Positions 21,595 to 51,052 of a stretch of DNA of 64,000 nucleotides are shown one piece after another. The stretch's first letter is position 1, and each line of letters opens with the position of its first letter. The DNA comes from Adhaeretor mobilis (GTDB lineage Bacteria > Planctomycetota > Planctomycetia > Pirellulales > Lacipirellulaceae): assembly GCF_007741515.1 (NCBI RefSeq), contig NZ_CP036263.1, positions 2,357,501-2,421,500 on the forward strand. The letters run 5' to 3'. The translations under genes were made by a program, and so were the position numbers. The notes under the pieces are model-generated. The model searched no databases, was not told the origin of the DNA, and saw only the letters and a program-made list of their open reading frames with translations.

Positions 21595-21666
21595 TAGCCC
21601 GCGAGCTACGCCTCGCGCGGAAACCCTTCTCAGGATCACCGCGCGAGACGTAGCTCGCGGGCTAGC
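21595..21666. repeat. REP palindrome, same family as those beside the RAYT genes
   Basis: Arms CTAGCCCGCGAGCTACGCCT... (21595-21621) and CCGCGCGAGACGTAGCTCGC... (21640-21666) are complementary over 27 bases with one mismatch. The same core, CCCGCGAGCTACGCCTCGCG, occurs at 49323-49411 and 49974-50059. Located between nupC and hpt. Confidence 0.85.
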
Positions 21667-40296: not shown

Positions 40297-40732
40297 CACA
40301 TGCGTCCTTGCACAATTTGCGGGTGGCGCTGTCGCCAACATACCGAGTCCGCAGAGTACCCCAAACCGCCAGAACTACGCAAGATTGATTGCGGTGCTAG
40401 CTGCGGTGAGTCGAGAGACTAGCAGGAAACGTGAACGCACGAATCAAGCCAAATAGCCGTCGAGCTACGCCTCGACCGGAGCCCTTGAGGGGAATACCTT
40501 TGCTCGCTCTCTGCATTTTTCCCTTGCACACCGGCAGCTCGTTGAGCCGCGGCTATTGGGGTGAATCATCGGGTAGGCGCTGCTCGAGGGGTTTGCCGGA
40601 ACGCTGGTGCGAGCAATTCCGATCCAAGATGGATCGGCTATAGCCGACCCATCTTGGGTCGGAACGGTGGAGCTTGGGTCGGAACGGTAGAATCCTGAGC
40701 AAACGCGGCCTGCGATTCCAGGAGAAGACACG
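40297..40732. other. intergenic region with REP-like pieces and a perfect-arm palindrome
   Basis: Holds a REP core half-site (GTCGAGCTACGCCTCGACCGG from ~40457, shown in part), a CCGCGGCTATT half-site near 40540 as in the 11189-11290 element, and a 34-base palindrome at 40624-40657 (CCAAGATGG-A-TCGGCTA and its complement, one mismatched pair). A CTTGGGTCGGAACGGT motif is duplicated at 40650-40690. No gene seen. Confidence 0.55.
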
Positions 40733-48102: not shown

Positions 48103-48153
48103 CTAAGTCCTGAAGCCGTCCACCAACACGTTTCGGTTTCTAACTCAAAAAAA

Positions 48154-48620
48154 CCGCAGAGGGCCTGTAAGCCGGGTTCTGTACTCACACGCGAGGTGCA
48201 AGCGACGATCATTCCTCTACGACGACGATTGCTCGCACGCCTCTAGCAGCCCACCCGAGAGTCGTAACGAGCCGGACCGACTCTGCTCTCTGTTTGGCCT
48301 TGCGCCGGACGGGGTTTACCTAGCCAAGCGAGTCACCCCGCCTGCTGGTGCGCTCTTACCGCACCATTTCACCCTTACCTGTGAGGCTGTTGGCCGCTGG
48401 CTCTTGGCATCTGGCTCCTGTGTGAAGGGAACATTCCCCCCAACAACAAGCTAAAAGCCAAGAGCCAGCGGCCAACAGCCCCCATCGGCGGTATCTTTTC
48501 TGTGGCACTATCCCTGGTCTCACGATCGGTGGACGTTATCCACCGTCCTGTCCTATGGCGCCCGGACTTTCCTCCCGCCTGCAGTTGCCTGCAAACCGGC
48601 GATCGCCCAGCCCTCTGCGG
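48154..48620 (-). ncRNA. rnpB: RNase P RNA (class A, bacterial)
   Basis: Catalytic RNA that matures tRNA 5' ends. Read on the minus strand it begins CCGCAGAGGGC and ends GCCCTCTGCGG, an 11-bp perfect P1 helix. Diagnostic blocks follow: GAGGAAAGTCCGGGC (CR-I), GGTAAGGGTGAAATGGTG and the CGGTAAGAGCGCACC region, the tRNA-CCA-contact loop GGTAAACCCC, and CAGAACCCGGCTTACAG near the 3' end. Between 48385 and 48480 a 96-base hairpin is inserted, in the variable P12 area. Confidence 0.95.
48385..48480. repeat. palindromic insertion inside rnpB
   Basis: Perfect 24-bp arms: GGCTGTTGGCCGCTGGCTCT... (48385-48408) and its complement ...AGCCAGCGGCCAACAGCC (48457-48480), with a 48-base loop. The GTTGGC/GAGCCA sequence type is that of dispersed planctomycete repeats rather than of RNase P. 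Confidence 0.85.
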
Positions 48621-48646
48621 TAAGAATATCGTACTCGCTAGAGCAG

Positions 48647-48692
48647 CACCGGGCGAGGCGTAGCTAGCCGGCGAGCTACGCCTCGCTCGGTG
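48647..48692. repeat. REP palindrome upstream of RAYT copy 1
   Basis: CACCGGGCGAGGCGTAGCT...AGCTACGCCTCGCTCGGTG: near-perfect arms around a CTAGCCGG loop. Contains the core GAGCTACGCCTCGC shared with 21595-21666, 49323-49411 and 49974-50059. Confidence 0.8.
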
Positions 48693-48792
48693 CCCAGGGA
48701 AAGATCAAATCCAAATCATTGACAGATACTGAACGTACGTATACCATTGGTGAAGTCGAGGAAAAGTATCTCTCAATAGGAGTATTACGGCC

Positions 48793-49293
48793 ATGCCTTG
48801 TTACTTGTTCACCTATCACGCACATGGAAGCTGGCTCTCCGATACCTACCAGGCGTCAAGAGATGGCGTCTATCAGCGAGCGCTATTTGCTGATCAAGGT
48901 CGCGCTGAGCGGGGTCGAATCGCTCGAAGTCAGTCGCGGAGACCCATTCGGAGCACCGGGCTATTAGCTGCAGAGCAAAAGCTTGCGATCGAGGGACTCA
49001 CGCGTGCGGCTCAGTTTCAGAATTGCGAAATTCATTATGTGGCGACTGATCGCACGCACGTTCATGTGTTGGTGAGCTGGCAAGGCGCATGCCATTGGAA
49101 GGATCAGCGAGCGAATATGAGAAAAGCTATCGTGGCAAACCTTCAGAAGATGCGCGGCCGAGAGACTTGGCTCTCTGAAGGCTCGTCGCGCAAGCGGATC
49201 AAAGACAAGCACCATTTCCAGCAACTCATGACGGAAACCCTGCCTAAACATCGTGGGCTGAAGTGGAGTACGCAGCGCGAGGTGCATGCATGA
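48793..49293 (+). CDS. REP-associated tyrosine transposase (RAYT, Y1/HUH family), copy 1
   Basis: Single-strand-specific Y1/IS200-type transposase domain. The N-terminus MPCYLFTYHAHGSWLSD and the HUH motif in HYVATDRTHVHVLVSWQG are canonical for RAYT proteins, with a C-terminal segment ETWLSEGSSRKRIKD...HRGLKW. 166 aa. Where the second copy and family relatives have Tyr (HFDYLMTMYLP) this one reads HFQQLMTETLP, so the usual catalytic Tyr may be missing. It is flanked by REP palindromes on both sides. Confidence 0.85.
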   Translation: MPCYLFTYHAHGSWLSDTYQASRDGVYQRALFADQGRAERGRIARSQSRRPIRSTGLLAAEQKLAIEGLTRAAQFQNCEIHYVATDRTHVHVLVSWQGACHWKDQRANMRKAIVANLQKMRGRETWLSEGSSRKRIKDKHHFQQLMTETLPKHRGLKWSTQREVHA

Positions 49294-49322
49294 TCGGTGC
49301 TTGAACAGTAGGACGATACTTT

Positions 49323-49411
49323 CCGCGCGAGGCGTAGCTCGCGGGCTACTGGTGTTAAAGACTTCGTTTGGCGTTTGATCTTAGCTAGCCCGCGAGCTAC
49401 GCCTCGCGCGG
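49323..49411. repeat. REP palindrome pair between RAYT copies
   Basis: Left CCGCGCGAGGCGTAGCTCGC... (49323-49348) and right ...CCCGCGAGCTACGCCTCGCG (to 49411) are perfect complements. Same family as at 21595. Confidence 0.88.
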
Positions 49412-49473
49412 CGCGCCTCGCTAAAAAGTTGCGTTTGGCAGTGATCGCCACAATCATTAGTGGAGTCTAAATC

Positions 49474-49955
49474 ATGCCTTGCTACTTGTTCACCTATCAC
49501 GCTCATGGAAGCTGGTTACCCGATCACCCTCGTGGTTTCGTCAAGCGTGGCAAGGGATATCTGCCAAGTGATCCGCAACTTGCAGAAAAGTATCGAGGAA
49601 ATATGAAGGAATCAACGGTGGTTCTTAAGTCGCCAGAGCAGCGGCTCGTGATCAGCGCTGTACTGGAAGCAGTCAAGCACATCAATTGCCAACTGCACTA
49701 CGTAGCCACAGATCAAACACACATTCACGCACTTGTCAGTTGGTCTGACAACACCGCTTAGCAGAAGCGACGCAACAGTCTTAAAAAACAATCACGATTA
49801 ACTTGAAAGAACAGCAGGAGAGAAAGACCTGGCTCTCCGAAGGGGCGTCAAGGAAGCAGGTTAGTGAGCAAGAGCATTTCGATTACCTGATGACGATGTA
49901 TTTGCCAAGACATCGTGGATTGAAGTGGAATGCGGATAGAGGGATTCACTCTTGA
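49474..49955 (+). pseudogene. RAYT copy 2, disrupted by stop and frameshift
   Basis: Starts MPCYLFTYHAHGSWLPDHPR, with the HUH motif DQTHIHALVSW. A TAG at 49759-49761 interrupts the frame (DNTA, then QKRRNSLKKQSRLT), and a frame change near the A-run at 49783-49788 is needed to continue into ERKTWLSEGASRKQVSEQE and FDYLMTMYLPRHRGLKW, which ends at 49955. This copy keeps the Tyr-containing HFDYLMTMYLP segment lost in copy 1. Non-functional as read unless the frame is restored. Confidence 0.85.
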
Positions 49956-49973
49956 GAGGATTGTTGCGTTTTT

Positions 49974-50059
49974 CCGCGCGAGGCGTAGCTCGCGGGCTAC
50001 TGACTCTTAGAGAATCGCAAGGTTTGAACCAACTAGCCCGCGAGCTACGCCTCGCGCGG
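49974..50059. repeat. REP palindrome downstream of RAYT copy 2
   Basis: CCGCGCGAGGCGTAGCTCGC... (from 49974) and the complement ending at 50059. It ends six bases before the radical SAM gene's stop codon and could serve as its 3' hairpin. Confidence 0.88.
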
Positions 50060-50065
50060 ATTATC

Positions 50066-51052
50066 TCAGTTCACATCGCCACTTGCAGAGTACGACCGCC
50101 CCTGCCACGTATTCCGGCGCTCAAACTCCGCCTCAATTGCGCACTTGACTGCTGGTTTATCGAGGCACCACTCGGGGCCAACGAAGTAGTCCGGCGGTGC
50201 GTCGCCGCTAGTCCGTTCGACAACCATCGTCGGAGGTAGCAACTCAAGAAAGTCGACGACTGTCTTCACGTAATCATCCTGTTCCATAAGCGTTACTTCG
50301 CCAGCGGCGACTTGTTCGGCGAGGCGAGTGTTTTTTACGCAGTAGAGGTTGTGGATTTTCACGGCGTCGAGGTTCACTCGGGCAAGCTCTTTGGCCGTGG
50401 CGAGCATGTCCTCGTGAGATTCACCGGGTAAGCCAAGCATGACATGGGCACACATCTCGAAGCCGCGCCCGCGACTTCGCTCCACAGCATCAAGAAACGA
50501 GGCATGATTCTCACCTCGGTTCATCCACTCCAGAGAGCGATCGTGCATGGTTTGCATGCCGTACTCGATAGAAAGATTTGTCCGTCCGGCGAACTCCTCT
50601 AGCAAGTCGAGCACGTCATCAGGGACACAGTCACTGCGGGTGCCAATCGCCATGCCGACGACTTGAGGGTGGGTTAAGGCATCTTCGTAAAGCCCGCGCA
50701 GGCGTTCAACTGGAGCGTAAGTATTTGTGGCGGGCTGGAAGTAGGCGATAAAAGACTTGCAGTTCTTGTATCGGTTTTTCATGCGATCAATGCTTTGCTC
50801 GATTTGTCCGTAGATACCCGCTCTTGGCAACCGGCGGCTGGGGCTGAAGCTGCGATTGTCGCAAAAGGTGCAACCTCCTTTGGCGACCGTGCCATCAACA
50901 TTTGGGCAGGTAAATCCGGCGTCGAGGCTAACCTTTTGAACCCGCTCGCCGAACTGCCCCCGAAGGTAGTGATTGAGGGAATAATAACGCAGCCCGGCAG
51001 CCCGCCACGTCGGTTGGTCATGATTCGTCGTAAGCTGCTTTGTTGACGACAC
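50066..51052 (-). CDS. TIGR01212-family radical SAM protein (YhcC/YtqA-like)
   Basis: Iron-sulfur SAM enzyme of the YhcC family, often linked to tRNA or uncharacterised modification. Cluster cysteines C49, C61 and C64 follow the family's spacing C-x11-C-x2-C (TCPNVDGTVAKGGCTFCDN). FAGRTNLSIEYGMQTMHDRS and HVMLGLPGESHEDMLATAKE continue the TIM-barrel. 328 aa; GTG start at 51052. Substrate unknown. Confidence 0.9.
   Translation of the reverse strand: MSSTKQLTTNHDQPTWRAAGLRYYSLNHYLRGQFGERVQKVSLDAGFTCPNVDGTVAKGGCTFCDNRSFSPSRRLPRAGIYGQIEQSIDRMKNRYKNCKSFIAYFQPATNTYAPVERLRGLYEDALTHPQVVGMAIGTRSDCVPDDVLDLLEEFAGRTNLSIEYGMQTMHDRSLEWMNRGENHASFLDAVERSRGRGFEMCAHVMLGLPGESHEDMLATAKELARVNLDAVKIHNLYCVKNTRLAEQVAAGEVTLMEQDDYVKTVVDFLELLPPTMVVERTSGDAPPDYFVGPEWCLDKPAVKCAIEAEFERRNTWQGRSYSASGDVN

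Follow-up and report, generated by a model that had tools for sequence, protein, structure and literature searches.

Do two RAYT transposases of Adhaeretor mobilis mobilise the REP palindromes that lie beside them? The arrangement at positions 48647-50059 of the window (the whole stretch of DNA analysed, 64,000 nucleotides) invites this question, as the original prediction described two RAYT genes alternating with three nearly identical palindromes built on the core GAGCTACGCCTCGC. The interval is bounded on the left by rnpB, the gene for RNase P RNA (48152..48618, minus strand; Rfam RF00010, 283 bits), and on the right by a radical SAM protein gene assigned from Pfam (50066..51052, minus strand), both of which serve as synteny markers against the sister species (G001), the sole other species of the genus in our comparison. 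The RNase P RNA gene also contains a long inverted repeat of its own (48385-48480; 47-nt arms, 79% complementary), and its counterpart in the sister species carries an inverted repeat of different sequence at the corresponding place.

All three palindromes lie at the positions given in the original prediction and proved to be inverted pairs sharing the core, which occurs between 48647 and 50059 in five exact copies and one with a single mismatch. The first, ahead of gene 1, is a 24-bp inverted repeat (48646-48693, 92%) in which two REP units overlap: a left half on the minus strand with two mismatches to the REP pattern (48649..48674), and the plus-strand unit TAGCCGGCGAGCTACGCCTCGCTCGG (48665..48690), recognized by inverted-repeat, pattern and folding evidence. 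The arms flanking gene 2 on both sides form perfect inverted pairs of 26-27 nt, each with a GTAG-tagged left arm on the minus strand and a CTAG-tagged right arm on the plus strand (49323..49348 and 49386..49411 upstream; 49974..49999 and 50034..50059 downstream). The single-stranded DNA folds of all three stretches are far more stable than those of shuffled sequence (z = -7.0 to -8.6), and a single unit presents a mostly unpaired 5'-TAGC and then a stem that carries a one-base bulge and is capped by the loop CTACGC. Across the window, the core has 10 matches at up to two mismatches, against 0.84 expected from shuffles, and dispersed REPs of the same family include an inverted pair recognized by core and pattern matches (21595..21620, plus strand; 21639..21664, minus strand) and the single unit TAGCCGTCGAGCTACGCCTCGACCGG, with a compensated stem (40454..40479, plus strand).

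Rarity of the core elsewhere in the genome had been named in advance as the observation that would count against the original prediction. Pattern searches of the 6.0 Mb genome found the reverse, with 27 exact cores against none for the reversed control pattern, and 63 copies of the full REP pattern TAGCCNNCGAGCTACGCCTCGNNNGG at up to three mismatches against two for the control. The tag TAGCC is unchanged in 27/27 exact-core copies, the base before it varies (C in 16, G in 7, A in 3 and T in 1), and stem positions around the core vary too, often in matched ways (CCGG..CCGG, CCCG..CGGG). An inverted partner lies within 200 nt of about two-fifths of the copies in the two species, mostly at a distance of 36-69 nt. 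The sister species has 80 copies of TAGCCNNCGAGCTACGCCTCGNNNGG at up to three mismatches (control, 1), and counts of 216, 56 and 52 were obtained in genomes G030, G011 and G003, respectively, with most other genomes examined at background level. Among the 27 exact-core loci compared, whose flanks have diverged, L005/L103 is the only clear same-place REP site between the two species. No RAYT from the corresponding clade that retains its catalytic residues was detected in the sister species or in G011; orphan REP populations do occur.

The identity of the neighbouring genes required more than standard profiles. Neither gene 1 (48793..49293, plus strand, encoding an intact 166-aa protein) nor gene 2 (49474..49955, plus strand) matched Pfam Y1_Tnp on its own, although 14 of 26 relatives do match that profile and 8 of 26 match the NCBIfam model for REP-associated tyrosine transposases at E <= 0.1; a sequence-profile search against the PDB gave no match. 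Structure was more informative. The AlphaFold model of gene 1 (mean pLDDT 83.6) has as its best Foldseek match in the PDB 4er8, the E. coli RAYT with its REP hairpin (E 2.9e-5), and that of an intact relative (mean pLDDT 94.0) resembles IS200/IS605 transposases (Z 13-14.5) and 4er8 (Z 11.2). The gene 1 protein is thus predicted by modelling to have the HUH (Y1) nuclease fold. Family members share the motif T-H-x-H-x-L-x-S-W and, some 60 residues on, a near-invariant Tyr within YLPxHxGxKW in the last helix, and we take this Tyr to be the nucleophile because of its near-invariance and its place in that helix. An hhalign comparison of the family with the other Y1 transposases of the genome aligned the HUH region and strand and left the Tyr helix unaligned.

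Both genes depart from this family pattern, in different ways. Gene 2 keeps a readable HUH region (THIHALVSW) and the ancestral Tyr motif MYLPRH, and its reading frame is broken by an in-frame TAG at 49759-49761 and by a frameshift, after which the C-terminus resumes in another frame and ends at a TGA (49953-49955). Gene 1 is open throughout and retains the HUH region THVHVLVSW, including H89-V-H91 (codons at 49057..49065), but has Thr149 (codon at 49237..49239) at the position taken in REP-flanked relatives by the Tyr of YLPxHxGxKW, and the protein contains no Tyr past the HUH motif. L049, the sister-species orthologue of gene 1, has Lys at the Tyr position and HVQ instead of HVH, and L073 and L074, which belong to a different genus and lie elsewhere in the tree, lack both the Tyr and the first His. 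Two homologous RAYT-family genes do stand beside REPs, as predicted, but only the first is intact. Judged from its sequence, gene 1 is best filed as a RAYT derivative and not as an active RAYT, because the catalytic Tyr is absent.

To which gene, then, do the REPs belong? Proximity fails as a guide, as gene 1 is REP-flanked on both sides here. In the family at large, TAGC-tagged hairpins flank almost all relatives that keep the Tyr, with stem sequences particular to each, and distances between RAYTs correlate with distances between their REPs (Mantel r 0.51, 0/5000 permutations, n=32); the REP family is specific to the RAYT. The REP type of the window is common to gene 2, L051, L053 and L055, and the dead members located elsewhere, L049, L073 and L074, have no REPs. 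Loss of the Tyr is associated with REP absence (Fisher p 0.002, from a table compiled by hand, with gene 1 counted as REP-flanked and relatedness ignored). The one family member of the genome in which HUH and Tyr are both intact, L029 (G000:C1:5658128-5658586, minus strand), is flanked by a different REP, CGGTGCTACGCACCG, which also accompanies L070, a relative in the sister species. The distant family members L107 and L108 have flanking hairpins with other stems, e.g., GCCGGCGGAAGCCGGC, which suggests a wider set of RAYT-REP pairs.

The sister species adds to this pattern, as neither gene 2 nor any REP is found near its gene 1 orthologue, which the radical SAM gene adjoins directly. Gene 2, in contrast, is bracketed in A. 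mobilis by an inverted REP pair on either side. Because of this comparison and the family pattern, the REPs are most likely those of gene 2 and not of both genes, and gene 2 would be the REPtron of this locus, now reduced, as its sequence indicates, to a pseudogene. L049 has a C-terminal extension next to the radical SAM gene, which points to a deletion of gene 2 together with its REPs in the sister species; alternatively, they may have been inserted in the A. mobilis genome.

A further feature of the family lies upstream of its genes. The dyad TGWACNNNNGTWYA or its mirror, at a match of at least 9/10, precedes about one-third of the family (13/39 upstream regions), in comparison to 0.77% of the windows used as control and 0/39 regions downstream of the genes, and seven perfect dyads lie 62-93 nt ahead of the start codon. 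The dyad precedes all four dead members and has been kept before both gene 1 and L049. At gene 1 it is the sequence TACTGAACGTACGTATACCA (48727..48746, plus strand), 46 nt before the start codon and beside a TTGACA (48719-48724); the motif there, TGAACGTACGTATA, may be compared with the site TGTACGCCCGTATA before A. mobilis lexA. The same motif precedes lexA in 14/14 family genomes at no less than 9/10, and in A. mobilis it is also found before ruvB, a recQ-type helicase gene and a Y-family polymerase gene, with a related site before recA (genes named from their translations). At gene 1 the full 20-nt dyad has three mismatches, and at that tolerance the genome as a whole yields no excess of hits over chance (62 hits at up to three mismatches against 98 for the control). 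The case for LexA is therefore made by the promoters of lexA and the repair genes and by the upstream regions of the family, and on these grounds gene 1 is apparently under SOS control through a candidate LexA operator. Planctomycete LexA is known not to use the E. coli motif (PMC3108266), and no published description of the TGWACNNNNGTWYA site was found in the literature searched. LexA-type dyads with 1-2 mismatches also occur at L110 (G000:C1:5565458) and L111 (G000:C1:1039431), whose neighbours, judged from translations, are between them one helix-turn-helix gene and one CsrA-like gene.

Has gene 1 simply outlived gene 2 by chance? If both genes were decaying RAYTs, gene 1 would have lost its Tyr first and would in time follow gene 2, with no domestication involved. 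Gene 2 is plainly broken, the sister-species orthologue no longer has the HUH motif, and the long stem branch to gene 1 and L049 (1.32, in comparison to 0.10 and 0.26 for the two tips) could reflect relaxed decay. These genes fall with gene 2, L051, L053 and L055 in one clade (support 92/88), and gene 2 is the closest relative of gene 1. However, L049 occupies the corresponding site between rnpB and the radical SAM gene, and its protein is 75% identical to that of gene 1, with extended runs of identity in the C-terminal half, at a divergence at which silent sites are saturated (pS 0.80, pN 0.16; pN/pS 0.20). The frame is open in both species, an outcome reached in only 1/2000 neutral simulations at this divergence, and the operator has been kept in both. 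Moreover, L073 and L074 are a second, independent dead pair in which the same combination recurs: no REPs, and the operator present. Silent sites being saturated and the proteins 75% identical, selection appears therefore to act on a protein that lacks catalytic residues, so that gene 1, as far as one species pair can indicate, would be under purifying selection, its lineage having probably passed through fast change first and constraint afterwards. Continuing decay of both genes is, in our view, an unlikely account of the locus.

We regard as more doubtful still the idea that gene 1 acts on REPs through another nucleophile, or as the partner subunit of another RAYT such as L029 at 5.66 Mb. 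It draws on the HVH kept in gene 1 and on the presence of an intact family member in the genome; however, the different REP carried by L029 is hard to reconcile with a partnership, E. coli TnpAREP appears to be monomeric (PMC6006769), and the sister orthologue has lost the HUH motif as well. That gene 1, or both genes, are active RAYTs mobilising the neighbouring REPs now, which is what the original prediction drew from the layout, and which REP abundance and the retained HUH motif of gene 1 might encourage, is very improbable given a pseudogene in the one case and, in the other, a protein conserved without any Tyr past that motif, whose sister-species orthologue adjoins no REP.

The relationship of this locus to known systems is close in its anatomy. 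The RAYT/TnpAREP REPtrons (PMC2817692; TnpAY1 class 2, PMC6006769) share with it the HUH fold, as reflected in the match to 4er8, RAYT-REP specificity, and TAG-tagged imperfect palindromes that occur as inverted pairs at the gene and dispersed in the genome, and the spacing of about 60 residues between HUH and Tyr fits that reported for the superfamily (PMC6006769). In contrast, the family described here has the signature Y-L-P-x-H (Y---H) where Y---NP, Y---Q and Y----Q have been reported (PMC6006769), most of its members score around the Pfam Y1_Tnp threshold or under it, its tag is NTAGC, in which the G is not invariant, and gene 1 lacks the Tyr. TnpAY1 class 3 is found mainly in Planctomycetes, Acidobacteria and Proteobacteria and is hairpin-flanked (PMC6006769), and resembles our family in its planctomycete host and its flanking hairpins; an identity with class 3 was rejected on account of the Y----Q signature and CnGA foot reported for it, as opposed to YLPxH and TAGC here (PMC6006769). 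GTAG REPs beside tyrosine transposase genes have been described in Planctomycetes, including Rhodopirellula baltica (PMC3733652), and by description they resemble the tagged REPs next to tyrosine transposase genes seen here. However, the portion of that report considered here has catalytic residues conserved in all aligned RAYTs and mentions no dead RAYT and no regulatory site.

A link between HUH transposases and DNA damage is likewise not without parallel. An ISCR HUH transposase is under LexA/SOS control (PMC13393415), and transposition of ISDra2 in Deinococcus radiodurans is triggered by irradiation (PMC2806898). In ISCR, as proposed here, the tie runs via LexA; both, however, are mobile insertion sequences, whereas the operator described here stands before RAYTs, some of which are unable to cut. 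In the literature searched, which covered few subscription journals, we found no report connecting a REP-associated tyrosine transposase with SOS.

The best reading is, therefore, that the locus is of a known kind, RAYT/REP, from an undescribed planctomycete branch, with a conserved, catalytically dead derivative that is apparently SOS-controlled. We consider it probable that a decayed REPtron lies here beside a preserved, non-catalytic RAYT derivative with a likely binding role. The anatomy of the family suggests that the ancestor of gene 2 was an HUH/Y1 RAYT whose substrates were single-stranded hairpins with a TAGC tag, which it dispersed as REPs; its descendant would now be dead in A. mobilis and is absent from the sister species. 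Gene 1 would have undergone a burst of sequence change in which the Tyr nucleophile was lost and the HUH fold retained, and purifying selection would since have maintained it at one shared chromosomal position in the two species, whose silent sites are saturated. Given the LexA-type operator, the protein would be expected to be made upon DNA damage. Its role would be one of binding and not of cutting, most likely as a REP-hairpin or ssDNA-binding protein, and it is plausible that it shields REPs from processing or helps stalled forks during SOS.

This locus merits a second look, for one gene is dead and the other has no cutting residue yet is kept. RAYTs have been termed domesticated transposases, and the fact that they cut DNA confounds any reading of their role in the host. 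A naturally occurring derivative of a RAYT without the cutting residue, at a fixed site, under apparent selection and behind a candidate damage-inducible promoter, would make binding separable from cutting, and gene 1 thereby offers a directly testable host role for a RAYT derivative. The family also provides some 30 RAYT-REP pairs as material for reading the recognition code. More tentatively, and with somewhat less than even confidence, we propose that Planctomycetes have at least two times made a RAYT into a non-cutting, DNA-damage-induced, REP-free hairpin binder that is kept by selection: a transposase now in the service of the host SOS response, perhaps guarding REPs or stalled forks.
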